Positions 16,472 through 62,193 of a stretch of DNA of 64,000 nt are shown piece after piece. This stretch comes from Pararhodobacter aggregans. Its GTDB lineage: Bacteria; Pseudomonadota; Alphaproteobacteria; Rhodobacterales; Rhodobacteraceae. Under the pieces are notes generated by a model. It was not told the origin of the DNA and made no database searches. It saw only the letters and a list, made by a program, of their open reading frames with translations. Numbering within the stretch: position 1 is the stretch's first letter; each line of letters starts with the position of its first letter. The stretch spans positions 124,001 to 188,000 of the forward strand of contig NZ_QDDR01000010.1 of the NCBI RefSeq assembly GCF_003075525.1. Reading direction: 5' to 3'. A program made the translations under genes and the position numbers.

Positions 16472-16587
16472 TTTCGCCCTCGGCTGCGCCTGCGGGCGAC
16501 CAACGGCGCGGCAGAGCCGCGCCGACAGGGGGGCGCTGCCCCCCTCGGCCTGCGGCCTCACCCCCCGGGATATTTGCAGAACGAAGA
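16472..16587 (+). repeat. Composite 3'-end element behind pyrE
   Basis: Starts four bases after the pyrE stop with TTTCGCCCTCG (16472-16482), then GGGCGACCA, a hairpin GGCGCGGC-aga-GCCGCGCC (16505-16523), a second hairpin AGGGGGGC-gct-GCCCCCCT (16527-16545) and the core CCCCCCGGGATATTTGCAGA...GAAGA (16561-16587). The same parts in the same order follow the amidase gene, and most follow sdaA. Behaves as a terminator-like module. Confidence 0.8.
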
Positions 16588-16734
16588 GGGACGGGGCGGC
16601 GCGGGCGTACACGGCGGGGCGACGATAGGGACGCGCGCCGGAAGAGCTCGAGGCGCGACACACCTCCGGGTCGCGAGGCTCCCTTTCTCAGAGGCGCGCG
16701 GGCGCTGCCCTGCGTTAACGCCTGATTAACCCGC

Positions 16735-16805
16735 ATCTTCGTTCTGCAAATATCCTCGGGGGGTGAATTGGCCCTCGGGCCAAGAGGGGGGCAGAAGGCC
16801 CCCCT
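16735..16805 (-). repeat. Composite 3'-end element, orphan copy upstream of dnaB
   Basis: Core ATCTTCGTTCTGCAAATATCC (first 20 bases 16735-16754) then GGGGGGTGAATTGGCC, hairpins TTGGCC-ctcg-GGCCAA (16768-16783) and AGGGGGGC-agaag-GCCCCCCT (16785-16805). About 60 bases match 62061-62121 almost base for base. It reads leftward, as if ending a minus-strand gene that is not there; it faces the pyrE element, with GTTAACGCCTGATTAACC between them. Confidence 0.8.
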
Positions 16806-16835
16806 TCCCTGACCACCGGCCGGGCGCGACCGGAC

Positions 16836-16844
16836 TTATCCACA
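16836..16844 (+). promoter_or_regulatory. Perfect DnaA box upstream of dnaB
   Basis: TTATCCACA, the consensus DnaA-binding site, lies 184 bp before the dnaB start. Downstream, CCCCCGCTTAT (16852-16862) and ATAAGGGGG (about 16900-16908) form an imperfect long-loop inverted repeat. The rest of 16588-17019 holds no credible gene. Confidence 0.6.
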
Positions 16845-17019
16845 GCACCGTCCCCCGCTTATTTGCCCTGGCCGATTGTCGCGGAGGGTCGCATTTGCGA
16901 TAAGGGGGCACGGTGCCGCCGGACCTCCGCCCCTTCCGGGCCCCGGACCGCCGGGCGCCGTCGCCCTGTTCCGTGCCCGCGCCCCACCGCGTTTGCCGCC
17001 CCCTGCCCCGGACCCGCCC

Positions 17020-18522
17020 ATGACCGAGATCGCCGCCCTTCGCCCCGCCGCCCCGCAAGGCTCCGACACGACGGCGGCCGCCGAGGTCCTGCCGCATAAC
17101 GTCGAGGCCGAGCAGCAGCTTCTGGGCGCGATCCTGACCAACAATGATGTCTATGACCGCATCTCCTCGCTGGTGAAGCCCGACCATTTCTTCGAGCCCG
17201 TGCACCGGCGCATCTTTGAAATCGCCGCGGCGCGGATCCAGAAGAACGCGCTGGCCTCGCCGGTGACGCTCAAGGCCTTCATGGACGACGATGCCGGGCT
17301 GAAGGAGCTGGGGGGCGCGGCCTACCTCGCGCGGATCGCGGGCGCCGCCGTCGCCTCCTATGCCGCGCGCGATTACGCGCAGATGATCTACGACCTGGCC
17401 GTCCGGCGCGAGCTGATCCAGCTGGGCCGCGACATCGCCGCCCGCGCCGCCACCGTCGAGGTCAAGGACGAACCCAAGGAGCAGATCGTCGCCGCCGAGC
17501 AGGCGCTCTACAAGCTGGGCGAGCAGGGCGTGGCGGAGAAGGGTTTCCAATCCTTCCTGCGCGCGGTGACCGAGGCGGTGAATGTCGCCGCCGCCGCCTA
17601 TCAGCGGGACGGCGGGCTGGCGGGCATCTCGACGGGCCTGGTCGATCTGGACAAGAAACTGGGCGGTCTGCACCCTTCGGACCTCATCATCCTTGCCGGA
17701 CGGCCCTCGATGGGCAAGACCTCGCTCGCCACCAACATCGCCTTCAACATCGCCAAGGCCTACAAGCGCGGCATCCGCCATGACGGGCAGGAGGGCGCGG
17801 TGAACGGCGGCGCGGTGGGGTTCTTCAGCCTCGAGATGTCGGCCGACCAGCTGGCGGCGCGGATCCTGTCCGAGGCGGCCGAGGTCCCCTCGGAACAGAT
17901 CCGCCGCGGCGACATGTCCGAGGAGGAATTCCGCCGCTTCGTCGAGGTGGCGAAAACGCTGGAGAATTGCCCGCTCTACATCGACGACACCCCCGCCCTG
18001 CCGATTTCGCAGGTGGCGGCGCGGGCGCGGCGGCTCAAGCGGACGCATGGGCTGGACGTGCTGATGGTCGACTATCTGCAACTGCTGCGGGGCTCGTCCA
18101 AGGAAAGCCGGGTGCAGGAGGTGTCCGAGATCACCCAGGGCCTCAAGGCCATCGCCAAGGAGCTGAACATCCCTGTTATCGCCCTCTCGCAGCTCAGCCG
18201 CGCCGTGGAAAGCCGCGACGACAAGCGGCCGCAGCTGTCGGACCTGCGCGAATCGGGCTCGATCGAGCAGGACGCCGACGTGGTGATGTTCGTGTTCCGC
18301 GAGGAATATTACCGCGAGCGCGAGAAGCCCTCGGACCACGATCTCGACGCCATGGCCAAGTGGCAGGAGATCATGGAGCGCGCCCATGGCAAGGCCGAGG
18401 TGATCATCGGCAAGCAGCGGCACGGGCCGATCGGCACGGTCGAGCTGAGCTTCGAGGGGCGCTTCACCCGCTTCGGCAATCTGGTGCAGAGCTGGCAGCA
18501 GGACAGCGGGCCGGAATACTGA
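17020..18522 (+). CDS. dnaB: Replicative DNA helicase DnaB
   Basis: Hexameric 5'-3' helicase of the replication fork. 500 residues: an N-terminal primase-interacting domain (LPHNVEAEQQLLGAILTNNDVYDRISSL, residues about 24-51) and a RecA-like motor with Walker A GRPSMGKTS near 227-235, Walker B LMVDYLQLL near 348-356, and arginine-finger region KQRHGPIGTVELSFEGRFTRF at the end. ATG 17020 gives the normal N-terminus; the frame stays open further upstream but without family similarity. A strong intrinsic terminator follows 18 bases after the stop, and a DnaA box lies upstream. Confidence 0.96.
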   Translation: MTEIAALRPAAPQGSDTTAAAEVLPHNVEAEQQLLGAILTNNDVYDRISSLVKPDHFFEPVHRRIFEIAAARIQKNALASPVTLKAFMDDDAGLKELGGAAYLARIAGAAVASYAARDYAQMIYDLAVRRELIQLGRDIAARAATVEVKDEPKEQIVAAEQALYKLGEQGVAEKGFQSFLRAVTEAVNVAAAAYQRDGGLAGISTGLVDLDKKLGGLHPSDLIILAGRPSMGKTSLATNIAFNIAKAYKRGIRHDGQEGAVNGGAVGFFSLEMSADQLAARILSEAAEVPSEQIRRGDMSEEEFRRFVEVAKTLENCPLYIDDTPALPISQVAARARRLKRTHGLDVLMVDYLQLLRGSSKESRVQEVSEITQGLKAIAKELNIPVIALSQLSRAVESRDDKRPQLSDLRESGSIEQDADVVMFVFREEYYREREKPSDHDLDAMAKWQEIMERAHGKAEVIIGKQRHGPIGTVELSFEGRFTRFGNLVQSWQQDSGPEY

Positions 18523-18540
18523 CGCCCCCTTCCCCGACGC

Positions 18541-18577
18541 AAAAGGGGCGCAAGCTGGCTGCTTGCGCCCCTTTTCT
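18541..18577 (+). terminator. Rho-independent terminator of dnaB
   Basis: AAAAGGGGCGCAAGC (18541-18555), 5-nt loop, GCTTGCGCCCCTTTT (18561-18575): a perfect 15-bp stem whose end supplies the U-run. The A-run makes it bidirectional in principle. Confidence 0.95.
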
Positions 18578-18599
18578 CATGCCGCGCACCTGTAGCCGG

Positions 18600-18652
18600 A
18601 AGGCGGGGGCCGCAGGCGGGGTGGGCGGGCGGGAGCCTGCGGCCCCCGCCTT
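18600..18652 (-). terminator. Long hairpin behind pyrG
   Basis: AAGGCGGGGGCCGCAGGC (18600-18617) pairs perfectly with 18635-18652, an 18-bp stem with a 17-nt loop, seven bases after the pyrG stop. No U-run follows on the minus strand; it could protect the transcript end or terminate with help. Confidence 0.65.
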
Positions 18653-18658
18653 ACGGCC

Positions 18659-20302
18659 TCAGACCAGCCGCGAAACCTCGACCGCGGCGCGGACGAAATC
18701 GGCGAACAGCGGATGCGGCTTGAAGGGTTTGGATTTCAGCTCGGGGTGGAATTGCACGCCGATGAACCAGGGATGGCCCTTGTGCTCGATGATCTCGGGC
18801 AGGCGGCCATCGGGCGACATGCCCGAGAAATGCATCCCGCAGGCTTCCAGCTTGTCGCGGTAGCGGATGTCGACCTCGTAGCGGTGGCGGTGGCGTTCCT
18901 CGATCTGCGTCGCGCCATAGACCCGCGCCACCAGCGATTCGGGGTCGAGCGCCGCGTTATAGGCGCCCAGCCGCATGGTGCCGCCCTTGTCGTCGCCGAG
19001 CTTGCGCTCGACCACATGGTTGCCCTGCACCCATTCCTTGAGGTGATAGACCACCGGCTCGAATTTCTTGTTGCCGCGCTCGTGGTCGAATTCCTCGGAC
19101 CCCGCGTTCTGGATGCCCGCCAGGTTGCGCGCCGCCTCGATGACGGCCATCTGCATCCCGAGGCAGATGCCCAGATAGGGGATCTTGCGCTCGCGCGCCC
19201 AGGCGGCGGCGCGGATCTTGCCCTCGGTGCCGCGTTCACCGAAGCCGCCGGGCACCAGAATGGCGTGGAAGCCTTCGAGCACCTCGGTCGGATCGCCCTT
19301 CTCGAAGAGTTCGGCGTCGATCCATTCGGCCTTGACCCGCACCCGGTTGGCCATCCCGCCATGGGTCAGCGCCTCGGCGATGGATTTATAGGCGTCTTCC
19401 AGCTGGGTGTATTTGCCGACGATGGCGACGCGGACCTGCCCTTCGGCATGGGTCAGGCGGTCCATCACGTCTTCCCAGCGGCTGAGGTTCGGGCGCGGCG
19501 CCGGGGTGATCCCGAAGGCGTCCAGCACCGCCTGATCCAGCCCCTCGCGGTGATAGGCCAAGGGCGCCTCGTAGATCGTCTTCAGGTCATAGGCCGGGAT
19601 CACCGCATCGGGCCGGACGTTGCAGAACAGCGCGATCTTGGCGCGTTCCTTGGCCGGGATCGGGTGTTCCGAACGGCAGACCAGCACATCGGGCGCAAGG
19701 CCGATGGATTGCAGTTCCTTCACCGAATGCTGGGTCGGCTTGGTCTTCAACTCGCCCGAGGCCGCCAGATAGGGCAGCAGCGTCAGGTGCATCAGGATGC
19801 ACTGGCCGCGCGGGCGTTCGTGGATGAACTGGCGGATCGCCTCGAAGAACGGCAGCCCCTCGATATCGCCGACCGTGCCGCCGATCTCGCAGAGCATGAA
19901 ATCGACCTCATCGTCGCCGATGCGGAGGAAATCCTTGATCTCGTTGGTGACATGCGGAACGACCTGGATGGTCTTGCCCAGGTAATCGCCGCGGCGTTCC
20001 TTCTCCAGCACGTTGGAATAGATCCGCCCGGACGAGATGGAATCGGTCTTGCGGGCCGGAACGCCGGTGAAGCGCTCGTAGTGGCCCAGGTCGAGGTCGG
20101 TTTCGGCCCCGTCGTCGGTGACGAAGACTTCGCCATGCTCAAAGGGCGACATCGTGCCCGGATCGACGTTGAGATAGGGATCGAGCTTGCGCAGGCGGAC
20201 CGTGAAGCCCCTGGCCTGCAACAGCGCACCCAGCGCCGCAGAGGCCAGCCCTTTGCCAAGGCTCGACACCACACCACCGGTGATGAAGACGTAGCGCGCC
20301 AT
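18659..20302 (-). CDS. pyrG: CTP synthase
   Basis: Converts UTP to CTP with glutamine as nitrogen donor. 547 residues: the N-terminal synthase domain opens [22 protein letters not shown] with the P-loop-like GVVSSLGKG, and [20 protein letters not shown] binds UTP; the C-terminal class I glutamine amidotransferase has the nucleophile in [11 protein letters not shown] (near residue 380) and QFHPE near 515. ATG 20302 (MARYVF) is chosen over an upstream ATG at 20332 because it matches the family start. Transcribed toward dnaB; secG lies 135 bp upstream on the same strand. Confidence 0.97.
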
Positions 20303-20437
20303 GCTGGAAACCCCCGTGTTCGTCGCAGCCAAAATGATCGGATCACGGGAGTCGAGCTATACCTCAAACCCCCGGCTTCCGCAATACGGACCCAACATCC
20401 TGCGTTAATTGGGTGCAGGCCCCAAAATCTTGAGAGA

Positions 20438-20809
20438 TCAGTCCTGCCGCGGCGGCAGGACGGGTGCGTCACCGGCCGGCGGCAACTGGATATCGGGCAG
20501 TTGCACGCCCGGCGTGGCGGGTGCCGCGGGGGCCGGAGCCGTCGGCGCATCGACGCCGAAGCGTTCCAACACCGAGGTATCGGCCGAGTTCGAGGCGGCG
20601 ATGACAGTCAGCGCCAGCGAGGTCATGATGAAAGCCCCGGCGAACAGCCAGGTCAGCTTGGCCAGCCCCGTCAGCGGCGGACGACCGGCCTGCGGCCCGA
20701 GCGACGCGCCCCCCATGCCCAGCCCGCCATTCTCGGAACGCTGAAGCAGCACCACCCCCATCAGCGCCAGCGCGAGGAGGAGATGGATGATGAGAACGAC
20801 AGTCTGCAT
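20438..20809 (-). CDS. secG: Preprotein translocase subunit SecG
   Basis: Small integral-membrane partner of SecYE. 123 residues with two helices (VVLIIHLLLALALMGVVLLQ and LTWLFAGAFIMTSLALTVIA) joined by the conserved cytoplasmic loop RSENGGLGMGG. The C-terminal 50 residues are an Ala/Pro-rich periplasmic tail common in Rhodobacteraceae SecG. secG followed by pyrG is the usual alphaproteobacterial order. Confidence 0.93.
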   Translation of the reverse strand: MQTVVLIIHLLLALALMGVVLLQRSENGGLGMGGASLGPQAGRPPLTGLAKLTWLFAGAFIMTSLALTVIAASNSADTSVLERFGVDAPTAPAPAAPATPGVQLPDIQLPPAGDAPVLPPRQD

Positions 20810-20888
20810 GGACGGGCCCTTGTCTCCGGTTCGGGCCTATCTATGCCGCGTGTTCGGGGCGTGCAAGCCCTTTGCCCCTCTGCCGGGC

Positions 20889-21272
20889 TCAGCCGGGCCG
20901 GTCGCAGACCGCCGAGAGCTTGTTGCCGTCGGGGTCGCGCAAGTAGCAGGCGTAGAAATCGGGGCCATAGTCGCGCAGGCCCGGCGCCCCCTCGTCCGTG
21001 CCGCCGTGGCTCAGGCCCGCGGCATGGCAGGCATCGACCGCGGCGCGGCTCGGGGCGATGAAGGCGGGCATCGAGCCGTTGCCGGCGCTGGCCGCGCGCC
21101 CGTCCCAGGGGCGCATCACCCAGAAGACCGCCTGTTCCATCCCCGGCGCGCCGTAGCCAAGGCTCTGCGGTCCGGTCGAGAGGCGCAGGTAGCCCAGCGC
21201 GCCCAGCACCGCGTCATAGAAGCGGGCCGCGCGCGTCAGGTCGTTCGAGCCCACGTCGACGTAGCGGATCAT
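20889..21272 (-). CDS. VOC family protein (glyoxalase/bleomycin-resistance fold)
   Basis: A 127-residue single VOC module: opening [29 protein letters not shown], and closing [22 protein letters not shown] with the usual DPDGN turn. Metal ligands are only partly kept (no His at the first-strand position, where Tyr stands). Likely a small-molecule binding or dioxygenase-related protein of unknown substrate. Its ATG overlaps the stop of the DUF6524 gene by four bases, so the two are co-translated. Confidence 0.85.
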
Positions 21273-21667
21273 TCCTGATCCACATCGTCGACATCCGCCT
21301 GGCCGCTGATTCGGCGCCGGATGATCGACCAGCTCATGCCGATGCCCAGCACCAGCGAGCCGATGAACACCGCCAGCCACTGGTTCAGCGCCGCGTTGCC
21401 GGTGCCGAGCAGGCCGTAATAGACCAGCACCCAGATCACCGCGGCACAGAGCGCCAGCACCAGCCCCACGCCCAAAGGCCCGATCGAGCGGAAGGTCGCG
21501 CGCAGATAGACGACATAGCCCACCAGCAGCACCAGCCCGCCCAGCACGGTGACGGGCAGGTTGTCGGTGCCGTTCGCCCGGACCCAGTTGATGAAGTTCC
21601 ACTGGGTCGGGTTCCAGGTGGCGGCGAGCAGAATGAAGGCGATGAGCCAGCGCAGAAGAAAGGCCAT
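21269..21667 (-). CDS. DUF6524 family membrane protein
   Basis: 132 residues with four predicted helices: [59 protein letters not shown] and [20 protein letters not shown], ending in a short acidic tail [12 protein letters not shown]. The [10 protein letters not shown] block after helix 1 is typical of this Rhodobacteraceae family. Function unknown. It is divergent from purA with a 156-bp gap. Confidence 0.8.
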
Positions 21668-21823
21668 GATGAAAATCCTTGGTGTCCGATCCTCGATTGG
21701 TGCCCAACCTGCGACGCCCTGTCCAGTGCCCCTGCCCGCCCCCCCGATCAAAAGGGTGTTTCGCCCGGGCGCCCGTGTCGCTATAGAACGCACGGCTTCA
21801 GCGAACCGAGGAAGGATTCCGGC

Positions 21824-23122
21824 ATGGCCAACGTGGTTGTCGTAGGCGCCCAATGGGGCGACGAGGGCAAGGGCAAGATCGTCGACTGGCTCAGCGAGCG
21901 CGCGGATGTGATCGCGCGGTTCCAAGGGGGCCATAACGCCGGTCATACCCTGGTCATCGACGGCAAGGTCTACAAGCTGAACGCGCTGCCCTCGGGCGTG
22001 GTGCGGGGCGGCAAGCTGTCTGTCATCGGAAATGGCGTGGTGCTGGATCCCTGGCATCTGGTGGGCGAGATCGCCAAGATCCGCGAGCAGGGGGTGGAAA
22101 TCAGCCCCGAGACGCTGATGGTGGCCGAGAACACGCCGCTCATCATGCCCTATCACGGGGAACTCGACCGCGCGCGCGAGGCTTCGGCCGCGGGCTCGAA
22201 GGCCAAGATCGGCACCACCGGGCGCGGCATCGGTCCGTGCTACGAGGACAAGGTCGGGCGCCGGGTGATCCGGGTCGCCGACCTCGCCGATCCGGCGACG
22301 CTGGAACTGCGGGTCGACCGGGCGCTCTTGCACCACAACCCCTTGCGGGCCGGTCTGGGGCTGGAGCCCATCGACCGCGACGCGCTGATCGCGTCGCTCA
22401 ATGCCATCGCGCCGCAGATCCTGGAATATGCGGCCCCCGTGTGGAAGGTGATGAACGACCTGCGCCGGGCCGGCAAACGCATCCTCTTCGAGGGCGCGCA
22501 GGGCTCGCTTCTGGACATCGACTTCGGCACCTATCCCTATGTCACCTCGTCCAATGTCATCGCGGGTCAAGCCGCGACCGGCGTCGGCATGGGCCCGAAC
22601 GCGATTGATTTCGTGCTGGGGATCGTCAAGGCCTATACCACCCGCGTCGGCGAAGGCCCCTTCCCGACCGAGCTGATGGACGATGACGGCGAGCGTCTGG
22701 GCACGCGCGGCCATGAATTCGGCACCGTGACCGGGCGCAAGCGCCGCTGCGGCTGGTTCGATGCGGCGCTGGTGCGCCAGACCTGCGCCATTTCCGGCAT
22801 CAACGGCATCGCCCTGACCAAGCTGGACGTTCTGGACGGGTTCGAGACGCTGAAGATCTGCGTGGGCTATGAGCTCGACGGCCAGACGCTGGATTACCTG
22901 CCGACGGCCGCCGATCAGCAGGCCCGCTGCACGCCGATCTACGAGGAAATCGAGGGCTGGTCGGAATCGACCGAGGGCGCGCGCTCCTGGGCCGATCTGC
23001 CGGGCGCCGCGATCAAATACGTCCGCCGGGTCGAGGAGTTGATCGGCTGCCCGGTGGCGCTGCTCTCGACCTCGCCCGAGCGCGACGACACCATCCTCGT
23101 CACCGATCCGTTCGAAGACTGA
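21824..23122 (+). CDS. purA: Adenylosuccinate synthase
   Basis: First step from IMP to AMP, using GTP and aspartate. 432 residues. The P-loop GDEGKGK is at 12-18, GHNAGHT near 40-46, [15 protein letters not shown] near 128, the GTP-specific [22 protein letters not shown] near 221, and the aspartate loop [15 protein letters not shown] near 300. GAGGAAGG precedes the ATG. It runs directly into the DUF2842 gene (stop and start overlap). Confidence 0.97.
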
Positions 23123-23346
23123 TGGCGCTGTCCTATCGCACCCGCAAGCGCCTCTCGGTGCTGATCCTTCTGGTCGCGCTGCCGGCCTATATTGTCGTGG
23201 CCATCACGCTGGTGGGCCTGTTCGACCGGCCGCCGTTCCTGCTGGAACTGGCGATTTATGTCGGGCTGGGGGTGATCTGGGCCTTCCCCCTGAAGGCGAT
23301 CTTCAAGGGGGTCGGCCAGCCCGATCCCGACGCCCCGGAAGAGTGA
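23122..23346 (+). CDS. DUF2842 family small membrane protein
   Basis: 74 residues: a basic start (ALSYRTRKRLSVLI), two helices (VLILLVALPAYIVVAITLVGLF and FLLELAIYVGLGVIWAFPLKAIF) and a short acidic tail. This is the DUF2842 pattern, in which the RKR start and WAFPLK are conserved. Its first base is the last base of the purA stop codon, so it is part of the purA transcript. Role unknown. Confidence 0.88.
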   Translation: MALSYRTRKRLSVLILLVALPAYIVVAITLVGLFDRPPFLLELAIYVGLGVIWAFPLKAIFKGVGQPDPDAPEE

Positions 23347-23364
23347 CACGAGTCCTGGAATGAG

Positions 23365-23394
23365 AAAAGGCGCCGGTTTCCCGGCGCCTTTTTC
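23365..23394 (+). terminator. Rho-independent terminator of purA-DUF2842
   Basis: AAAAGGCGCCGG (23365-23376), loop TTTC, CCGGCGCCTTTT (23381-23392) followed by T: a perfect 12-bp stem with U-run. It also faces the convergent coiled-coil gene and, having an A-run, may serve both. Confidence 0.95.
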
Positions 23395-23411
23395 ATGGTC
23401 TTGGCGGCGTC

Positions 23412-28149: not shown

Positions 28150-28153
28150 TCCC

Positions 28154-37450: not shown

Positions 37451-37498
37451 GCCGGGGGCCAGCCCCCGGACCCCCGGGATATTTGAGGAACAAAGATC
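37451..37498 (+). repeat. 3'-end element behind DUF2783
   Basis: Hairpin CCGGGGGC-ca-GCCCCCGG (37451-37468), then ACCCCCGGGATATTTGAGGA...CAAAGA (37469-37495). Reads with the gene it follows. Faces the copy behind the UbiH gene across the spacer GGTTAACAAAACCTTAACC. Confidence 0.8.
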
Positions 37499-37521: not shown

Positions 37522-37573
37522 CATCTTCGTGCTGCAAATATCCCACGGGGGTCCGGGGGTGTGAAACCCCCGG
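37522..37573 (-). repeat. 3'-end element behind the UbiH-type gene
   Basis: Minus-strand hairpin CCGGGGGT/ACCCCCGG (37553-37573, 8 bp), then ACCCCCGTGGGATATTTGCA and GCACGAAGATGG. Mirror partner of 37451-37498 between two convergent genes. Confidence 0.8.
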
Positions 37574-46170: not shown

Positions 46171-46205
46171 CTTCATTCTGCCCCAAATACGCCCTTCTGG
46201 GGCAA
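46171..46205 (-). repeat. 3'-end repeat behind rpiA
   Basis: On the minus strand: TGCCCC-agaagggcgtattt-GGGGCA followed by GAATGAAG. The core is the exact reverse complement of 11541-11561. It lies 14 bases after the rpiA stop and reads with rpiA. The stem puts TATTT in the loop. Confidence 0.8.
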
Positions 46206-49908: not shown

Positions 49909-49921
49909 TTTGGGGTCCAGA

Positions 49922-51633: not shown

Positions 51634-51659
51634 CCCGCGTCACACCGCACTTATCCGCA

Positions 51660-54326: not shown

Positions 54327-54949
54327 CCGCCGGAAGGGGCGCCTTCGTCACCTTCGAGGGGATCGACGGATCGGGCAAGTCAACCCAGGCGCGGCTCCTG
54401 GCCGAGGCGCTGCGCGGTTCGGGCCGCGAGGTCGTGCTGACCCGCGAGCCCGGCGGCTCGCCCGGGGCCGAGGAGATCCGCCGTCTGGTGCTCGAGGGCG
54501 ACCCCGAGCGTTGGTCGGCCGAAACCGAGATCCTGCTCTTCACCGCCGCCCGCCGCGACCATCTGGAACGCACCATCGAGCCCGCGCTGGCCGCGGGCCG
54601 CACCGTGATCTGCGACCGATTCGCCGATTCGACGCGGATGTATCAGGGCCTGTCGCGCGGCGATCTCAGGGCGCTGGTCGACCAGTTGCATGCGCTGATG
54701 ATCGGCCGCGAGCCGGATCTGACCGTGCTGATCGACATGGACCCCGAGGTCGGGCTCGCCCGCGCCAAGGGCCGCCGCGGCACCGAGGAACGGTTCGAGG
54801 ATTTCGGGCCCGACTTGCAACGCCGGATGCGCGCCGGGTTCCTGGCGCTGGCCGGGGAATTCCCGGCCCGTTTCCGGGTGATCGACGGCGCCCGCCCGGT
54901 CGAGGCGGTGGCGGCCGATGTGCTGGCGACCGTCCGGGCCGCGCTATGA
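54323..54949 (+). CDS. tmk: Thymidylate kinase
   Basis: Phosphorylates dTMP to dTDP. 208 residues. P-loop FEGIDGSGKSTQ (11-22), the DR(Y/F) motif CDRFADSTRMYQG near 94-106 and a LID region AKGRRGTEERFEDF. Overlaps dacA by four bases and holB by four bases. The frame starts MTAGRGAFVTFEG from an ATG-like GTG at 54323 in the sequence GTGACCGCC. Confidence 0.95.
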   Translation: MTAGRGAFVTFEGIDGSGKSTQARLLAEALRGSGREVVLTREPGGSPGAEEIRRLVLEGDPERWSAETEILLFTAARRDHLERTIEPALAAGRTVICDRFADSTRMYQGLSRGDLRALVDQLHALMIGREPDLTVLIDMDPEVGLARAKGRRGTEERFEDFGPDLQRRMRAGFLALAGEFPARFRVIDGARPVEAVAADVLATVRAAL

Positions 54950-56049
54950 GCGAGGCGCCCGAGGCCGACCGCATCGCCGGGGCGCCGCATCCCCGCGACA
55001 CGCGCCGTCTCTATGGACAGGCGGCGGCGGAGCGGCGGTTCCTCGATTCCCTCGCCCAGGGACGGCTGCACCACGGCTGGCTGATCACCGGCCCGCGCGG
55101 CATCGGCAAGGCGACGCTGGCCTGGCGGCTGGCCCGGTTCCTGCTGGCCGAAGAGCCGGGCGGCGGCCTGTTCGGTCCGCCCGAGACGCTGGACGTGGAC
55201 CCCGTCCACCCGGTGTCCCACCGCATTGCCGCGGGGTCTGAACCCGGGCTGCTGCCGATCCGCCGCGCCGCGGACGACAAGACCGGGCGGCTGAAAAGCC
55301 AGATCACGGTGGATGAGGTCCGCAAGCTGCGCGATTTCTTCGGCATGTCCTCGGCCGAGGGCGGGCGGCGCGTGGTGATCGTCGACAGCGCCGACGAGAT
55401 GAACCCGAGCGCCGCCAACGCGCTGCTGAAACTGCTGGAGGAACCGCCCGCCGGGGCGATGCTGCTCTTGGTCTCGCACCAGCCCTCGCGCCTGTTGCCG
55501 ACGATCCGCTCGCGCTGCCGGGAGCTGCGCTTGCAGCCGCTGGGTCCCGAGGACATGGCACGGGCGCTGGAACAGGCGATGGGCCTGGCCGAGGAATCCG
55601 AGGCGCTGACCGCGCTGTCGGGCGGCTCGGTCGGCGAGGCGATCCGCGTCGCCTCGGGCGGCGGATTGGAGCTCTATGCAGAAATAGTGGCAATTCTGGC
55701 CGAATACCCCCTGATGGACCGCGCCAGAATATTGAAATTGTGCAACTCGCTGGGCGGTCGCGAGGCCGAGCCGCGCTTCGATCTGACCGTGCGGCTGCTG
55801 GATCTGGCGCTGGCCCGGCTGGCCCGTGCGGGCGCCACCGGCCAGCCCCTGCCCGAGGCCGCACCCGGCGAATCCCGCCTGCATGACCGGCTCGCCCCGG
55901 ATGCCCGCGCCGCCCGGCACTGGGCGGAAATGGCCGCCGATCTGGGGGCACGGGCGCGCGGCGGACGGGCGGTCAACCTTGACCCCGGCGCGCTGGTGCT
56001 GGATATGTTCCTGCGACTGGAATCCGCGGCGCGCACGGCGAGTGGATAA
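54946..56049 (+). CDS. holB: DNA polymerase III subunit delta'
   Basis: 367 residues, AAA+ clamp-loader subunit. Walker A-like GPRGIGKATLAWRLARFLL (about 46-64), Walker B region RRVVIVDSADEMNPSAANALLKLLEEPP and sensor 1 LLLVSHQPSRLLPTIRSRCRELRL with the SRC motif. The zinc module is reduced. It works with holA and dnaX products at the replication fork. Coupled to tmk by an ATGA overlap, and followed 14 bp later by tatD. Confidence 0.92.
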   Translation: MSEAPEADRIAGAPHPRDTRRLYGQAAAERRFLDSLAQGRLHHGWLITGPRGIGKATLAWRLARFLLAEEPGGGLFGPPETLDVDPVHPVSHRIAAGSEPGLLPIRRAADDKTGRLKSQITVDEVRKLRDFFGMSSAEGGRRVVIVDSADEMNPSAANALLKLLEEPPAGAMLLLVSHQPSRLLPTIRSRCRELRLQPLGPEDMARALEQAMGLAEESEALTALSGGSVGEAIRVASGGGLELYAEIVAILAEYPLMDRARILKLCNSLGGREAEPRFDLTVRLLDLALARLARAGATGQPLPEAAPGESRLHDRLAPDARAARHWAEMAADLGARARGGRAVNLDPGALVLDMFLRLESAARTASG

Positions 56050-56063
56050 ATGCCGGACCCCCG

Positions 56064-56852
56064 ATGACGCCCCTTCTTGTTGACAGCCACACCCATCTCG
56101 ACTTCCCCGATTTCGACGGCGAGCATGACGCGATCCTGGAGCGCGCCCGCGCCGCCGGGGTCACGCGCATGGTCAGTATCTGCACGCGGCTGGACCGTGA
56201 GCCGATCGTGCGGGCGCTGGCGGAAAAATACCCGGAAGTCTATTACGCCGCCGGCATCCACCCGATGCGGGCGGGCGAAGAGCCGCTGGTCGCGCTGGAG
56301 GATCTGACGGCTCTGGCCGCGCATGCCAAATTCGTCGGCATCGGCGAGACCGGGCTCGATTACCATTACACCCCCGAAAGCGCCCCGATCCAGCAGGAGA
56401 GCCTGCGCGTGCATATCGAGGCCGCGCGCCAGACCGGCCTGCCGCTCATCATCCACGCCCGCGACGCAGACGAGGATATGGCCCGCATCCTGACCGAGGA
56501 ACACCGCGCCGGCGCCTATACTTGCGTCATGCATTGCTTCTCGTCGGGGCCGGAACTGGCGGCGGCGGCGCTGGATCTGGGGTTTTACCTCTCCGCCTCG
56601 GGCATCGCCGCCTTCCCGAAATCGACCGCCCTGCGCGAGATCTTCGCCAGCGCGCCGGTGGACCGGATCCTGGTCGAGACGGACGCGCCCTATCTGGCCC
56701 CGCCCCCCTATCGCGGCAAGCGCAACGAGCCCGCCTATACCGCCCATACCGCCCGCAAGATGGCCGAGGTCTGGGGCCTTTCCTTCGAGGATTTCGCCCG
56801 CCAGACGACCGAGAATTTCGACCGTCTCTTCACCAAGGCACGCCCGGCATGA
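56064..56852 (+). CDS. tatD: TatD family metal-dependent deoxyribonuclease
   Basis: 262 residues, TIM-barrel hydrolase of the YcfH/TatD group. Metal ligands are in LLVDSHTHLDFP (His8 and His10 region), GIGETGLDYHY (Glu about 93), LIIHARDAD, CVMHCFSSG and the final VETDAPYLAPPPYRGKRNEPAY. Probably 3'-5' DNA exonuclease activity. Start ATG 56064, in GGACCCCCG context. MBL gene starts in its stop codon. The tmk-holB-tatD-MBL order is common in this class. Confidence 0.92.
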   Translation: MTPLLVDSHTHLDFPDFDGEHDAILERARAAGVTRMVSICTRLDREPIVRALAEKYPEVYYAAGIHPMRAGEEPLVALEDLTALAAHAKFVGIGETGLDYHYTPESAPIQQESLRVHIEAARQTGLPLIIHARDADEDMARILTEEHRAGAYTCVMHCFSSGPELAAAALDLGFYLSASGIAAFPKSTALREIFASAPVDRILVETDAPYLAPPPYRGKRNEPAYTAHTARKMAEVWGLSFEDFARQTTENFDRLFTKARPA

Positions 56853-57649
56853 GCGACATCCTCCGCGCCACGATCCTCGGTTGCGGCTCGTCGGGCGGGG
56901 TGCCGCGGCTGGGCGGCGATTGGGGCGCCTGCGATCCCACCAACCCGCGCAACCGCCGCAGCCGCTGCTCGCTGCTGCTCGAACGCATCGGCCGGAACGG
57001 CACCACGCGGGTGCTGGTCGACACCTCGCCCGACATGCGCCAGCAACTGCTGGACGCGGGCGTCGGCACGCTGGATGCGGTGGTATTCACCCATGCCCAT
57101 GCCGATCATGTGCACGGGATCGACGACCTCAGGATGATCGTCTTCAACACCCGCCGCCGCCTGCCGGTCTGGGCCGATCCCTCGACCCAGGACGCGCTGC
57201 TCAGCCGCTTCGGCTATGCTTTCGTCCAGCCAGAGGGCTCGCCCTATCCGCCGATTTGCGACCTGCACACGATCCGCGGCGACGTGACCATCGAGGGCGC
57301 GGGCGGCCCCCTGACGCTCACGCCCTTCGAGGTGGACCACGGCAGCATCGACGCCCTGGGCTTCCGCATCGGCGGGCTGGCCTATCTGCCCGATGTGGTG
57401 CGCATCCCCGATCCGGTCTGGCCGGTGCTCGACGGCCTCGACTGCTGGATCCTCGACGCGCTGCGCTACAAGCCGCATCCGACCCATGCCCATGTGGCGC
57501 TGGCGCTGGAATGGATCGCGCGCGCCGCACCGCGCCGGGCGGTCCTGACCAACATGCATGTCGACATCGACCACAGCGTGATCGAGGCCGAAACCCCGGA
57601 CCACATCTCTGCCGCCTATGACGGCATGACCATCGAGCTGGCGCTGTAG
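56849..57649 (+). CDS. MBL-fold metallo-hydrolase (PhnP/RNase Z-like)
   Basis: 266 residues. The opening ATILGCGSSGGVPRLGGDWGACDP and metal motif HAHADH (His82, His84, Asp86, His87) with later VDHGS and TNMHVDIDH place it in the PhnP/RNase Z branch of the MBL superfamily; phosphodiesterase activity is likely. The same gene after tatD is a standard alphaproteobacterial arrangement. Coupled to tatD by an ATGA overlap. Confidence 0.9.
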   Translation: MSDILRATILGCGSSGGVPRLGGDWGACDPTNPRNRRSRCSLLLERIGRNGTTRVLVDTSPDMRQQLLDAGVGTLDAVVFTHAHADHVHGIDDLRMIVFNTRRRLPVWADPSTQDALLSRFGYAFVQPEGSPYPPICDLHTIRGDVTIEGAGGPLTLTPFEVDHGSIDALGFRIGGLAYLPDVVRIPDPVWPVLDGLDCWILDALRYKPHPTHAHVALALEWIARAAPRRAVLTNMHVDIDHSVIEAETPDHISAAYDGMTIELAL

Positions 57650-57667
57650 GCCCGCAGAAAGGCGGCC

Positions 57668-58597
57668 ATGCAGGCGCTTGTCCAGGTCATTCTTCCCGTC
57701 TTCCTTGTGGTGGGCGCGGGCTATCTGGCCGCCTGGCGCGGCTGGATGACGCCCGGCGGCGTCGACGGGCTGATGAAATTCGCGCAAGGGATCGCCATCC
57801 CGATGCTGCTGTTCCTGGCGATGATGCGGCTCGATCTGGCGCATGTCTTCGACTGGCGGCTGCTGGTCAGCTTCTACGGCGGCGCCATCTCGGGCTTCGT
57901 CGCGGGTCTGCTGGGCGCACGGTTCCTGTTCGGGCGCGAGTGGGAGGATGCGGTGGCGGTGGGCTTCATCTGCCTCTTCTCGAACTCGATGCTGCTGGGC
58001 GTGCCGATCACCGAACGCGCCTATGGCGCCGCGGCGCTGGCCCCCAATTACATCATCGTCGCCTTCCACGCGCCGCTTTGCTACCTGATCGGCATCACGG
58101 CGATGGAGGGGGTGAAGGCCCGGGGCGCCGGTCTGGGGCGGACGGCGATGAAGGCGCTGAACGGGCTCTGGCACAATCCGCTGGTTATCGGCATCGCGCT
58201 GGGGGCGGCGGTGAACCTGAGCGGGCTGACCCTGCCCGTCGTCGTCGTCGATGCGGTCGAGCTGATCTCGCGCGCGGGGCTGCCCGCGGCGCTGTTCGGG
58301 CTGGGCGGCGTGCTCTTCCGCTACCGGCCCGAGGGCGATCTGCGCCTCATCGCCTATGTCGTGGTGATCTCGCTGGCGCTGCATCCGACCATCACCTGGG
58401 GGCTGGGCCGGTTCCTCGCGCTGGACCACGGGCCGTTCCGCTCGGCGGTGCTGACCGCGGGGATGGCGCCCGGGGTCAACGCCTATCTCTTCGCCGACAT
58501 GTACGGACGCGCCAAACGCATCGCCGCCTCCAGCGTGCTGATCGCGACCGCGCTGTGCATCCTGACCGCCTGGGGCTGGATGACGCTGCTGGGGTAG
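57668..58597 (+). CDS. AEC (auxin efflux carrier) family transporter
   Basis: 309 residues with ten predicted helices in two halves. The family features are the opening VILPVFLVVGAGYLAAWRGWM, the broken-helix region FSNSMLLGVPITERAYG with its conserved Asn/Pro, a central loop, and late GMAPGVNAYLFADMYGRAKRIAASSVLIATAL. Probably moves an organic anion such as malate. Last gene of the dacA cluster, 18 bp after the MBL gene. The 182 bp to nadE contain a hairpin only. Confidence 0.9.
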   Translation: MQALVQVILPVFLVVGAGYLAAWRGWMTPGGVDGLMKFAQGIAIPMLLFLAMMRLDLAHVFDWRLLVSFYGGAISGFVAGLLGARFLFGREWEDAVAVGFICLFSNSMLLGVPITERAYGAAALAPNYIIVAFHAPLCYLIGITAMEGVKARGAGLGRTAMKALNGLWHNPLVIGIALGAAVNLSGLTLPVVVVDAVELISRAGLPAALFGLGGVLFRYRPEGDLRLIAYVVVISLALHPTITWGLGRFLALDHGPFRSAVLTAGMAPGVNAYLFADMYGRAKRIAASSVLIATALCILTAWGWMTLLG

Positions 58598-58704
58598 CGC
58601 CGCCGCGCGCAGCCCGTCCACCGGGTGGGCGCAGGGACGATTGACCTGCGCGCTTAATGGCGTCAACTCCGGATGACTTTGTTCTTGCAGACCAGCGGTG
58701 CAAG

Positions 58705-58734
58705 GGCGCCCGCCCGAGGGGGCGGACGGGCGCC
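58705..58734 (-). terminator. GC hairpin behind nadE
   Basis: GGCGCCCG (58705-58712) and CGGGCGCC (58727-58734) pair with a 14-nt loop, 46 bases after the nadE stop. No U-run is seen. Confidence 0.4.
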
Positions 58735-58779
58735 GGCCCGGCGCGCTGCGCGCTTGATTCCGGGCCAGGAAGCGCTGGC

Positions 58780-60438
58780 TCAGCTCGGGTCGCGCCAGCG
58801 GTTCACCATCGGATAGCGCCGGTCCAGCCAGAAGGCCCGCGTGGTCAACCTTGTGCCCGGCGCCGACTGGAAGCGTTTCCATTCGCTGATGTAAAGGAGG
58901 TGCTCGACCTTCTTCACCGTCTCGCGCGCGAAGCCCTCGGCCACCAGCTCCTCGACCGACAACTCGCGCTCGACCAGCCCGTCGAGGATCGCGTCCAGCA
59001 CCGGATAGGGCGGCAGGCTGTCCTCGTCCTTCTGATCCTCGCGCAGCTCGGCCGAGGGCGGCTTGTCAATGACCCGCGGCGGGATCACCTCGCCCGCAGG
59101 CGCCAGCATCCACGGCCGGTGGTTCAGGTTGCGCCAGCGGCAGGTCTCGAAGACGCGGGTCTTGTAGAGGTCCTTGATCGGGTTGTAGCCGCCGTTCATG
59201 TCGCCATAGATCGTGGCATAGCCCACCGCGACCTCGGATTTGTTGCCGGTGGTCAAGAGCATGGCACCGGTCTTGTTCGAGATCGCCATCAACAAGAGGC
59301 CGCGCAGACGCGACTGGATATTCTCCTCCGTCACATCGGGGGCGAGACCGGCAAAGAGCGGCCCCAAGGCCTCGGTCACCGCGGCCCGGGGCCCGCTGAT
59401 CGGCACGGTATCGAGCTTTGTGCCCAACGCCCGCGCCACCGCCTCGGCATCCTCCAGCGAATGGGCCGAGGTGTATTCCGAGGGCAGCATCAGGCAATGC
59501 ACATTCTCGGGCCCCAGCGCATCGGCGGCGATCGCCGCCACCAGCGCCGAATCGATCCCGCCCGAGAGACCCAGCAGCACCCGCCTGAAGCCCGATTTGT
59601 GCAGGTAATCGCGGGTGCCCACCACCATGGCGTGATAATCCCGCTCCCAGTCGTCGGGCAGCGGGGCCTTCTCGCCCGACAGCGCCCGCCAGCCCTCGGC
59701 CGTCTCCTCGAAATCGACATGCACCAGCGCCTCGGTGAAGCCGGGCATGAGATGGGTCAGATGCCCGCCCGGGTTCAGCACGAAGGAGGTCCCGTCAAAG
59801 ACCTGATCGTCCTGCCCGCCCACCATGTTCAGATAGACCATCGGCAGACCGGTCTCGATGACCCGGCTGACCATCAGCCCCATGCGGGTGTCGAAACGGC
59901 CCCGCGAATAGGGCGAGCCATTGGGGACCAGCAGGATCTCGGCGCCGGATTCCGCCTGCGCCTCGGCCACATCCTCGTGCCAGGCATCCTCGCAGATCGG
60001 CGTGCCGATCCGCAGCGGGCCGACCCGGTAGGGGCCGGAAATGTCGGCAGGGGTGAAAAGCCGCTTCTCGTCGAAGACCAGATCATTCGGCAGATGATGC
60101 TTCTTCACCACCGCCGCGATGCGCCCGCCCGCCAGAATGTAATAGACGTTGTAAAGCCGCCCGCCCTCGATCAGCGGGCCCCCGATGCCCATCGCCGGGC
60201 CCTCGGCGCAGGCTGCCGCCAGCGCCTCGACCTCGGCCATGGCGGCGCGGGCGAAGGCCGGTTTCATCACCAGATCCTGGGTCTGGTAGCCGGTCACGAA
60301 CATCTCGGGGAAGGCGATCATGTCCGCCCCCGCGGCTTTGGCCTCGGCCCAGGCATCGCGGGCCTGCGCGGCATTGGCGGCAAGCGCCCCCACGACGGGG
60401 TTCAGCTGGGCCAGGGTCAGGCGGAAGGTCTGGGTCAT
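58780..60438 (-). CDS. nadE: Glutamine-dependent NAD+ synthetase
   Basis: 552 residues, two domains. The N-terminal nitrilase-like glutaminase has the Glu-Lys-Cys triad in FPEMFVTGY, VKKHHLPN and GTPICEDAWHEDV (Cys about 151); the C-terminal ATP-dependent amidase has the P-loop LLGLSGGIDSALVAAIA near 288-304 and the ammonia-accepting region TTGNKSEVAVGYATIYGDMNGGYNPIKDLYKT. Converts NaAD to NAD+. Monocistronic by position, transcribed away from the cupin gene's 3' end. Confidence 0.96.
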   Translation of the reverse strand: MTQTFRLTLAQLNPVVGALAANAAQARDAWAEAKAAGADMIAFPEMFVTGYQTQDLVMKPAFARAAMAEVEALAAACAEGPAMGIGGPLIEGGRLYNVYYILAGGRIAAVVKKHHLPNDLVFDEKRLFTPADISGPYRVGPLRIGTPICEDAWHEDVAEAQAESGAEILLVPNGSPYSRGRFDTRMGLMVSRVIETGLPMVYLNMVGGQDDQVFDGTSFVLNPGGHLTHLMPGFTEALVHVDFEETAEGWRALSGEKAPLPDDWERDYHAMVVGTRDYLHKSGFRRVLLGLSGGIDSALVAAIAADALGPENVHCLMLPSEYTSAHSLEDAEAVARALGTKLDTVPISGPRAAVTEALGPLFAGLAPDVTEENIQSRLRGLLLMAISNKTGAMLLTTGNKSEVAVGYATIYGDMNGGYNPIKDLYKTRVFETCRWRNLNHRPWMLAPAGEVIPPRVIDKPPSAELREDQKDEDSLPPYPVLDAILDGLVERELSVEELVAEGFARETVKKVEHLLYISEWKRFQSAPGTRLTTRAFWLDRRYPMVNRWRDPS

Positions 60439-60508
60439 CGCGGGTCAATCCTCTGCACCCGAGCTACATAGCAGGCTCACCGCCAAGGAAAAGCACCCCC
60501 TGCCCGTT

Positions 60509-60540
60509 CATTCTGCCACAAATACGCAGGGGTGGGCGCA
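60509..60540 (-). repeat. 3'-end repeat behind the cupin gene
   Basis: Minus strand: CCCACCCCTGCGTATTTGTG then GCAGAATGAAC. CCAC pairs with GTGG around CCCTGCGTATTT, where the 46171 copy has CCCC with GGGG: an apparent compensatory change. Between this core and the cupin stop lie hairpin-prone runs (GGGAGGGGC/GCCCCTCCC near 60558-60579; GGGGGGC/GCCCCCC near 60592-60608). Confidence 0.7.
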
Positions 60541-60620
60541 GGGAGGGGGTGGGCGCCGGGAGGGGCTCGCCCCTCCCGGCCGGGGGGCGCGGGGGGCTGG
60601 CCCCCCGCCTCCTCGCGCCG

Positions 60621-60965
60621 TCACAGCCGGATCACGTAATCCTTGAGCATCGTCTCGAAGACCTCCCAGACGCCCGAGAGCCCCGGCCGGATCACCACGC
60701 TGTCCCCCGCCTTCAGCTCCATCACCGTCCCGTCGTCGCAGGTCAGCACCGCCCGCCCCTCGTGCACGCGGATGTATTCCCATTCCTCGTAATGGAACCG
60801 CCAGGCCCCGGGCGTCGATTGCCAGAGCCCGGCGTAAAGCCCGTCCCGTTCCTCGAAATCCCAGCTGGTATGCACGGGGTCGCCCCTCACCAGCGTCTCG
60901 GGATCGGGGCGGCTTTCGACGGCGGCGACCCCGTCCTTGGCCATGCGGAAGATCAGCGCGCTCAT
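60621..60965 (-). CDS. Cupin domain protein (DUF861/ethanolamine-utilisation EutQ-like)
   Basis: 114 residues. The cupin_3 pattern is visible: [59 protein letters not shown], with the conserved W-E-Y and the G-D-x-V-x-I-PxGxxG turn. ATG 60965 is followed by a well-formed barrel; the frame extends upstream to 61019. Function unknown, perhaps binding a small organic acid. Divergent from the crotonase gene. Confidence 0.85.
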
Positions 60966-61086
60966 GGGACACTCCGGTTGTTCGGCCCGCAGCATGCCCG
61001 GCCCCCGCCCCACCGGCAAGACGCAGCGTCTCGTCTGGACTTCGCCTCAGCCCCGGCCCACCTTGCCCGCCAAACCGGAGGACATC

Positions 61087-61887
61087 ATGAAATCTCTCGA
61101 CGCGCTCGACCTCACCTTCACCACGCTCTCGGTCGACGGGGACGGCATCGCCACGCTCAGCCTCAACCGCCCCGACAAGCGCAACGCGCTGAACGAGGCC
61201 ACCGTGGACGAGCTGATCGACATCTTCACCGTCATCCCCCGCGCCGGGGTCCGCGCCGTGGTGCTGCGCGCCGAGGGCACGCATTTCTGCGCCGGGCTCG
61301 ATCTGGTGGAACACCATCAGGAAGACCGCCGGCCCGAGGATTTCATGCATGTCTGCCTGCGCTGGCACGAGGCCTTCAACAAGATGGAATACGGCGGCGT
61401 GCCGGTCATCGCCGCGCTGAAGGGCGCGGTGGTCGGCGGCGGGCTGGAACTGGCCTCCTCCGCCCATGTCCGGGTGGCCGATGCCACGACCTATTTCGCC
61501 CTGCCCGAAGGCCAGCGCGGCCTCTTCACCGGCGGCGGGGCGACGATCCGGGTGGCCGATCTGGTCGGCAAGGCGCGGATGATCGACATGATGCTGACCG
61601 GCCGGGTCTATCAGGGCGACGAGGCGATTTCCGTGGGCCTCGCGCAATATCTGGTCGAGGACAGCGAGGCCAAGGCCTATGCCCTGGCCCGCGCCGCCGC
61701 CTCGAACCCGCCCCTGTCGAATTTCGCCATCTGCTCGGCCATCAGCCATATGCAGAACATGTCGGCCCTCGACGCCGCCTATGCCGAATCGGTGGTGGCG
61801 GGGATCGTCAACACCCAACCCGCCAGCCGCGCCCGCCTCGCCGCCTTCGCCGACAAGACCGCCGCCCGGGTCCGTCCGAACGCATGA
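61087..61887 (+). CDS. Crotonase/enoyl-CoA hydratase family protein
   Basis: 266 residues. Crotonase fold with oxyanion-hole motifs [17 protein letters not shown] (about 56-72) and [22 protein letters not shown] (about 112-133). Of the two catalytic glutamates of ECH, the second position here falls in [14 protein letters not shown], where the Glu (PEGQ) is kept. Substrate unknown. A GGAGG site precedes ATG 61087. Confidence 0.9.
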
Positions 61888-61937
61888 TCGCCCCTCGTCT
61901 CCCGCAGCAGGGGCGCGGGCAGCGAGGTGGCAAGGAT

Positions 61938-62017
61938 GCGGGGGGCCAGCCCCCCGCGCCCCCCGCCAAAGGGGACCCTCGGGCCCCCTTTGGAAACCCC
62001 CGAGGATATTTAGAGAA
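61938..62017 (+). repeat. 3'-end element behind the crotonase gene
   Basis: Hairpin GCGGGGGGC-ca-GCCCCCCGC (61938-61957), second hairpin CCAAAGGGG/CCCCTTTGG (61966-61993), then CCCCCGAGGATATTTAGAGA and ACAAAGATG. Reads with the crotonase gene and faces 62049-62193 across GTTAAGAGGGCGTTAAGCCGCC. Confidence 0.8.
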
Positions 62018-62048
62018 CAAAGATGAAAGTTAAGAGGGCGTTAAGCCG

Positions 62049-62193
62049 CCTTCTTTGCGCTCCAAATATCCTCGGGGGGTGAATTGGCCCTTGGGCCAAG
62101 AGGGGGGCAGAAAGCCCCCCTCCCTGCGGCGCGGCGGCACGCCGCGCCGCTGGTCGCCCGAGGCGCCCGCGGCAGCGGGCAACGAGGGCGAAA
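62049..62193 (-). repeat. Composite 3'-end element behind the amidase gene
   Basis: Minus-strand order from the amidase stop: TTTCGCCCTCG (62183-62193), GCGGGCGCCTCGGGCGACCA, perfect 11-bp hairpin GCGGCGCGGCG/CGCCGCGCCGC (62126-62150), AGGGGGGC/GCCCCCCT (62101-62121), TTGGCC/GGCCAA (62084-62099), then CACCCCCCGAGGATATTTGG and GCGCAAAGAAGG. The most complete copy of the family. Together with 61938-62017 it fills the 318-bp gap, which holds no gene. Confidence 0.85.

Follow-up and report, generated by a model that had tools for sequence, protein, structure and literature searches.

Repeated cores at the 3´ ends of genes

A 64,000-nucleotide stretch of a Pararhodobacter aggregans contig (NZ_QDDR01000010.1, positions 124,001 to 188,000; hereafter the window) carries a dispersed element whose mark is a short core containing ATATTT or GTATTT, found mostly just after the stop codon of a gene. 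The word GGATATTTG has six matches in the window (16568+, 16747-, 28062-, 37477+, 37535- and 62063-) against 0.09 expected from shuffles, and a seventh core, the variant GGATATTTA, lies at 62004+. A second core type, GTATTTGGGGCAGAATGAAG, is exact at 11542+ and 46171- and has two mismatches at 60506-. An earlier note on this DNA had listed ten cores; all are present, and its coordinates were right to within about a dozen bases. It had also placed nine of the ten after a stop codon on the same strand, as we find, and the genes that it named have Pfam support: a phosphoribosyltransferase (pyrE), a glyoxalase, a serine dehydratase, DUF2783 and FAD_binding_3, and likewise RpiA, a cupin, an enoyl-CoA hydratase and an amidase. 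The exception is core 16755-, whose neighbour on that side, dnaB, is on the opposite strand.

The genome of the window (5.08 Mb in 32 contigs; G000 among the genomes compared) has 191 matches to GGATATTTG, 92 and 99 by strand, against four (3+1) for the same word reversed, which served as the control for core counts. The longer word GGATATTTGNNGNNCNAAGA has 179 (86+93), with none for its reversed control. Placement relative to genes was examined in a 464-kb set, 400 kb of one contig (c1) plus the window, with genes called by a home-made fifth-order model, which places the ten Pfam-checked genes of the window on their correct strands. Counts of k-mers over this whole set are dominated by codon effects, and GGATATTT and AACAAAGA rank high as well. 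A DNA uptake signal was set aside as the main reading, with the strict core occurring only about once per 27 kb.

Thirty-one of the 36 cores in the 464-kb set follow a stop codon on their own strand, 46 to 215 nt downstream (median 127), and none lies inside a called gene. The two-sided binomial probability of the same-strand placement is 1.3e-5, a value calculated as if the cores were separate, while facing cores share one junction, which makes the 36 partly paired rather than independent. The other five disagree with the called upstream gene (c1 18876, 248425, 282434 and 374577; window 16755). Among intergenic gaps of at least 100 bp, the element is present in 13 of 27 between convergent genes, 13 of 88 between co-directional genes and none of 57 between divergent genes (convergent plus co-directional versus divergent, p 1.7e-5). 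Where two copies face each other, many of the resulting composites extend, by eye, to a few bases from both stops. Of 35 element-bearing 3´ flanks in this genome, 29 are without a U-tract hairpin; in five of the remaining six, we read the hairpin as the element's own loop or the tract as a T-run beyond the core.

A putative third strand that mirrors the hairpin stem

Upstream of ATATTT, the parts come in a fixed order: a G-strand, a loop, a C-strand (C1), a linker or a whole second hairpin (H2), a further C-strand (C2) and a flank. The G-strand and C1 make up the first hairpin, H1. The linker between C1 and C2 is about 3 nt long (GGA in 47 of 69 pure-C cases), and the flank varies among GGG, AGG, GAGG, GTGGG, GCAGG and GGAGG. 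This is the predicted anatomy of an intrastrand triplex, and its main support is the way in which C2 follows the stem. When 46 distinct genome/sequence strings were scored for direction, C2 fitted the G-strand better in parallel in 35 and antiparallel in none, with many of the margins a single letter; the 11 ties are mostly runs that are their own mirror image. The parallel fits come from 17 genera. When levels are numbered from the loop end across 45 distinct sequences, the C2 letter opposite G is C in 247 of 255 positions, and opposite A it is T in 32, A in 10 and C in 3. A T or A displaced from the A level by one or two levels occurs in at most 2 of 45 sequences; three levels off, it occurs in 21 of 45, an excess that we ascribe to the A of the linker.

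The sequences with A in the stem came from a search of 198 genomes of the family that required an internal A in the stem and left C2 free; two such searches matched 21 and 11 genomes, 23 different ones together. Among local core-like sites, 195 of 293 failed to parse as H1 plus C2 and were left out of the fold tests; these include TGCCTCCGGCGGGGATATTT-type halves and unrelated words of other phyla. In the parsed local set without H2, T or A stands at the A level in 22 of 29 cases and one step off in 15 of 29 and 12 of 27, a profile blurred by the linker A, which occupies the base of the stem. In the local set with H2, most of which is one repeated motif, the figures are 38 of 41 at the level versus 1 and 2 of 41 beside it.

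As far as its letters tell, C2 thus repeats C1 in mirror image, which is what a third strand following the G:C1 stem would require, and no Watson-Crick pairing that would yield such a mirror was found. The earlier note had set out an ordered architecture; the CCCCCC before the core, which it took for a hairpin arm, behaves instead as the third strand. The lengths agree as well: C1 and C2 are equal in 64 of 69 cases without an insert (shuffle mean 34.3, maximum 48) and, where an H2-like insert is present, in 47 of 58 (shuffle mean 22.4, maximum 34). Two simpler accounts of C2, a direct repeat of C1 in which two C-strands compete for one G-strand and an extra plain GC hairpin, were both rejected on the same evidence, 0 of 46 strings antiparallel.

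The loop of H1 and the flank are also complementary more often than chance would have it. In distinct loop/flank combinations compared with 5000 shuffles, fetched DNA alone gives 55 Watson-Crick pairs against 38.9+/-4.3 (one shuffle reaches 55), and with typed strings included the count is 96 against 60.2+/-5.5 (no shuffle does). The signal is weaker in the local subsets, where 45 of 5000 shuffles do as well without H2 and 15 of 5000 with it. Complementary examples are TTTTGCA/GCAGG, TTTCACA/GTGGG, CACG/GTGG, TTT/AGG, TCT/GGG and CTTCGCG/GCGGG; in L-type arms (Table 1), loop TTTTCCA and flank GAGG pair only with two loop bases left free.

Composites, tails and a second core type

Where genes converge, the junction often carries a pair of facing arms. 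These make up one composite, commonly centred on TTAA-N7-TTAA, and facing copies that the earlier note had treated as separate belong together. In the genome of the window, the core-to-core span of facing arms is mostly 65-68 bp, with exceptions of 160 and 188; at facing places among the matches listed for G133 and G169, it is about 58-63. TTAA-N7-TTAA occurs 11 times in the 464 kb, and TTAA pairs with any other spacing between 0 and 20 occur 3 times in total; 10 of the 11 adjoin a core or stand between two. By eye, the pair recurs in other species with an unrelated N7, some composites have lost one TTAA, and the pair is absent at many single arms. We take this spacing to be that of a full CtrA site, which makes TTAA-N7-TTAA a candidate for one by its letters.

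Downstream of the core, a tail has a conserved build (N3, genome-specific letters, AAAGA) and is peculiar to the genome where copies are many: mostly GAAC or GCGC in G000, ACCC in G133, CCC in G169, AAAC in G186, AGCC in G140 and GCCC in G106. The pattern GGATATTTNNNNNNCNAAGA has matches in 33 of 149 genomes of the family. The earlier note mentions neither these tails nor the TTAA composite, the parallel mirror strand, the loop-flank complementarity or the kinship with triplex motifs. A second upstream half, TGCCTCCGGCGGGGATATTT, precedes the same core and tail in G169 (L126-L143) and at Marinosulfonomonas loci; it has no C2 code by eye and in G169 mostly follows a CGCGC hairpin.

The second core is GTATTT with a GAATGAAG-like tail. 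Of the 17 genus genomes with an rpiA match, 8, G000 included, have a GTATTT core at the 3´ end of that gene. It stands without the G-run build in G000, G006, G009, G015 and G016, and after a G-run hairpin, H2 and C2 in G003, G004 and G007, where the tail is of the GATGAAG or AATGAAA type. From the letters of these last three sites, the two core types seem to be one family.

Table 1. Parts of the element in the window, by position
Feature	Position	Strand	Remark
Second core type GTATTTGGGGCAGAATGAAG	11542..11561	+	22 nt past glyoxalase (gloA-like) stop (11519)
H1 hairpin of pyrE arm: G-strand, loop CGCTG, C1	16527..16545	+	pyrE stop 16467
H2 hairpin of pyrE arm	16547-16557	+	
pyrE arm: C2 run, flank GGG, core GGATATTTGCAGAACGAAGA	16559..16587	+	
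TTAA-N7-TTAA adjoining 16755- core	16715..16729	.	
C2, flank GAGG, core of 16755- arm	16736..16765	-	sole window copy not after a same-strand gene
H2 of 16755- arm	16768-16783	-	
H1 of 16755- arm, loop CCTTCTG	16785..16805	-	loop complementary to flank GAGG
C2, flank TGAGG, core after sdaA	28051..28080	-	sdaA 28154-29527 -
H1 of sdaA arm: G6, loop CATTCTG, C6	28081..28103	-	
H1 of DUF2783 arm: G5, loop CCAG, C5	37452..37469	+	
DUF2783 arm: C2 (C5), flank GGG, core	37470..37496	+	
TTAA-N7-TTAA	37503..37517	.	composite centre between DUF2783 and FAD_binding_3 genes
Facing arm (FAD_binding_3 side): C2 (C5), flank GTGGG, core	37524..37552	-	
H1 of facing arm: G5, loop TTTCACA, C5	37553..37573	-	loop CAC complements flank GTG
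Second core type after rpiA	46171..46190	-	
Second core type after cupin gene	60506..60525	-	2 mismatches
L-type arm after crotonase gene	61938..62023	+	hairpins 61938-61957, 61966-61993
L-type arm (crotonase): C2, flank GAGG, core	61994-62023	+	
TTAA-N7-TTAA	62030..62044	.	centre of crotonase/amidase composite
R-type arm after amidase gene	62052..62121	-	H1 62101-62121, H2 62084-62099
R-type arm (amidase): C2, flank GAGG, core	62052-62081	-	
GAGGGGTTTCGCCCTCG box near amidase stop	62183..62199	-	outer edge of R arm

Distribution among genomes

The exact core is found in at least 83 stretches, and the named contigs that carry it include those of Pararhodobacter marinus, Rhodobacter sp. NTK016B, Alterinioella, Marinosulfonomonas and Rhodovulum, and also of Roseovarius, Sulfitobacter and Sedimentitalea; some exact matches fall in other phyla, where the surroundings of the element are missing. 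Among 18 genomes of the genus, the copy number of GGATATTTGNNGNNCNAAGA runs from 0 to 179. A loose triple-block pattern has 2 to 214 matches in 16 chosen genomes of the family or genus, counts in which overlapping starts within G-runs are scored repeatedly, so that the numbers of elements are lower. Across the class, in 240 genomes almost all of other families, the loose pattern has matches in 125, for the most part no more often than its reversed control; among the matches listed, the full build is clear by eye only in two genomes of family f14, G048 and G360, and at a single place in G362. Arms of a similar kind with CGGTACAGGCGGGGACG-like DNA after them were seen in Roseovarius, Sulfitobacter, Sedimentitalea, Rhodovulum and Allosediminivita (L027, L045, L046, L067, L068, L075 and L101), and these are perhaps one conserved locus.

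At the 3´ end of sdaA, an arm is present in 5 of 15 genomes (in one of them with ATAATTT), and the hairpins differ; G011 and G014 have an element of another type altogether, and neither is seen in the remaining eight, one of them carrying a bare GTATTT. Between G000 and its close relative G016, the hairpin type differs and the flank changes along with the loop (CATTCTG/TGAGG and CACG/GTGG), the first of these pairing only when the leading T is assigned to C2. The different element of G011, a member of the same genus, occupies many of its convergent gaps (L114-L123): a short perfect palindrome with a varying self-complementary centre (GTCC-ACGCGT-GGAC, GTCC-AAATTT-GGAC or CTCA-AGCT-TGAG), then about 40 A/T-richer bases, then TTAACCGCAATGAAA. 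It is this type that follows sdaA in G011 and G014.

The composites of G000 share a near-identical build. Together with the variable copy number, this suggests some copying or gene conversion between sites, and our guess is that gene conversion keeps the many copies within a genome alike. The earlier note had argued for a role in transcript ends as opposed to a mobile parasite; this reading has partial support from the same-strand position after stops (31 of 36), the absence from called genes and from divergent gaps, the lack of Rfam and PF01797 matches, and the presence at some orthologous 3´ ends (sdaA, rpiA), and "not mobile" is too simple.

A proposed role at RNA 3´ ends

We suggest, with a probability of about one half, that this is a gene 3´-end element of Rhodobacteraceae, a terminator or 3´ barrier, with a three-stranded pseudoknotted fold upstream of the AU-rich ATATTT. 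In the nascent transcript, C2 would lie along the G:C1 stem and the flank would close on the H1 loop, giving an H-type pseudoknot with its third strand in touch with the stem. Such a compact knot would abut AUAUUU, where RNA polymerase would release the RNA, and could then shield the new 3´ end from exonucleases. Between convergent genes, the two arms would serve one transcript each, and the tail and the TTAA-N7-TTAA centre, lying beyond the RNA end, would act as DNA, by binding a protein or as a roadblock. RNA is in our estimate roughly twice as probable as DNA to be the nucleic acid that folds. Both the orientation relative to stop codons and the complementarity of loop and flank point to the transcript. 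A bolder version, which we put forward tentatively and with some doubt, is that an RNA triple helix ends many transcripts of this family, as a pseudoknot in which the third strand reads the terminator stem one base after another; its formation would bring about release at AUAUUU and leave the mRNA with a capped 3´ end. Were that so, the 35-to-0 parallel covariation would amount to evidence from natural selection for a triplex working in living cells.

A number of observations weigh against a role in the transcript. AUAUUU is a poor U-tract. The apparent exclusion between the element and U-tract terminators is seen by eye, and formal tests of it are not significant. Fourteen of 61 loop/flank combinations, CATTCTG/TGAGG included, have no Watson-Crick pair in the registers used, and allowing G.U pairs adds no strength to the loop-flank signal (143 versus 116.5+/-8.4). 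Mismatches of the G.U kind number 5 versus 14 of the A.C kind, which gives no sign of wobble in a sense RNA, and most of these stems look like chance. The C+.G-C triples of the proposed fold require protonation. The third strand opposite A is also often A (10 versus 32 for T; 47 versus 13 in a wider set, with much of that excess at the stem base), and this tolerance fits the purine-motif rule for antisense DNA better than the pyrimidine motif of which RNA is capable, unless the third strand runs along the shallow groove of a pseudoknot stem, for which another base rule may apply. Finally, the main text of a study of Escherichia coli triplex motifs describes these as without terminator activity (PMC4666352).

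Those motifs, BoxC, PIT and TM_ECO, are the nearest known kind of sequence. As described in the main text of PMC4666352, they have in common with the element three G/C-rich blocks of similar length on one strand with a second linker of 3 nt, and dispersed intergenic copies that at times form facing pairs. The letters of the element have the blocks, triad rules and short loops of the Hoyne/Holder classes of intrastrand triplex motif. By the classes in that text, the sense strand of the element is class III, a pyrimidine motif that is reported in RNA, and the antisense strand is class I, a purine motif that is not; opposite A, T or A fits in 42 of 45 sequences, and under the pyrimidine motif T alone does so (32 of 45). 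The block order is G-C-C on the sense strand and G-G-C on the other, whereas that given for TM_ECO is C-G-G, and the element does not match the TM_ECO/BoxC consensus given there, CCCTCNCCC N3-6 GGGNGAGGG N3 GGGNGAGGG. Unlike TM_ECO as described there, it is linked to gene ends and their orientation, has a linear ATATTT core with a genome-specific tail, and displays loop-flank complementarity and compensatory changes across genera; for TM_ECO, the same text reports neither strand bias nor terminator activity.

An alternative is that the fold is one of DNA: the G-rich template strand, opened by transcription or negative supercoiling, would form a class I purine-motif intrastrand triplex in the order C2´, linker, C1´, loop, pyrimidine arm, which would stall polymerase or insulate convergent genes, with the RNA hairpin secondary. 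We consider this unlikely, though it has the third-strand code behind it, since antisense G at G-C levels and A or T at A-T levels (the 42 of 45 above) are the A(T)AT and GGC triads of the R motif in PMC4666352. That text adds that purine-motif triplexes are impossible in RNA and that single DNA strands form them under physiological conditions, and a 3-nt linker may suit a reverse-Hoogsteen hairpin. However, the strands would have to be opened, in vivo footprinting of the E. coli motif, as reported in the same text, gave no stable triplex, and a DNA fold does not require the loop-flank complementarity or the orientation with the gene.

Improbable in our judgement is a dispersed repeat of the kind of a bacterial interspersed mosaic element (BIME), repetitive extragenic palindrome (REP) or miniature inverted-repeat transposable element, copied about and surviving only where harmless, mainly between convergent genes, with a structure that reflects its mode of copying. 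The range of 0 to 179 copies within the genus, the near-identical composites and the different hairpin types of close relatives at one site all favour such copying; but orientation follows the gene in 31 of 36 cases, many composites end a few bases from stops, the placement is common to several species, and the third strand changes in a compensatory manner across 17 genera. Matches to PF01797 are also absent in G000, G016 and G009. Still less probable is a site that primarily binds protein as DNA, with the core tail and TTAA-N7-TTAA as its targets and a response regulator of the CtrA type at the central pair, serving to organise the chromosome or to control read-through between convergent genes. 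The preference for one TTAA spacing (11 versus 3), its position at cores (10 of 11) and its recurrence around an unrelated N7 speak for this, yet the pair is missing at many single arms and incomplete in some composites, and the triple code would be left unexplained.

Relation to known systems

Intrinsic terminators stand after stop codons, consist of a GC hairpin followed by an A/U tract, and act in both directions between convergent genes, and the 3´-end element proposed here is alike in these respects. It differs in that its tract is ATATTT and a linker, C2 and the flank intervene between H1 and the tract, so that the hairpin is not directly followed by a U-tract: H1 lies at least about 10 nt upstream, the gap is filled by the third strand, and a long conserved DNA tail follows. 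Such a build suggests a non-canonical way of ending transcripts in GC-rich bacteria, and predictors that look for a hairpin plus U-tract should miss ends of this type. With SAM-V and preQ1 riboswitches, the proposed fold has an H-type pseudoknot topology in common, and SAM-V has a major-groove triple helix; the element differs from them in its many copies and its place after genes, with no ligand or role in a 5´ untranslated region proposed for it.

The earlier note had given no family name, and an Rfam scan of the window at the gathering score returns a tRNA only. Matches to microRNA models, 1 and 7 in two composites, fall far short of the gathering score (best E 0.00015, 32.4 of 197 bits). 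A literature search by titles, with most subscription journals outside it, returned none about a 3´-end triplex of Rhodobacteraceae, and the words Rhodobacter, Roseobacter and Ruegeria are absent from the main text of PMC4666352. Counts of intrastrand triplex motifs exist for thousands of bacterial genomes, and for the E. coli motif no functional class, strand bias or stable in vivo triplex is reported in that main text (PMC4666352). What the present comparison adds is compensatory change that can be followed triad by triad through 17 genera while the gene context stays fixed, which makes the formation and action of a triplex in cells directly testable by a few point mutations.

The REP and BIME sequences of enterobacteria are likewise dispersed palindromes at 3´ ends, frequent between convergent genes. 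The element has no GTAG-headed hairpin, a feature of REPs, and PF01797 (Y1_Tnp, of the type of REP-associated tyrosine transposases, RAYTs) has no match in G000, G016 or G009; within the 18 genomes of the genus, it has matches in two, G006 (weak) and G011. Identity with a REP/RAYT system is therefore unlikely. Despite the lack of a PF01797 match in G000, REP-like hairpins of the forms GTAGGGTGGGATTTCATCCCACC and GTAGGGTGCGTGCTCGCACGCACC do occur in its convergent gaps (L006-L025; c1 184353, 192212, 203540 and 244631).

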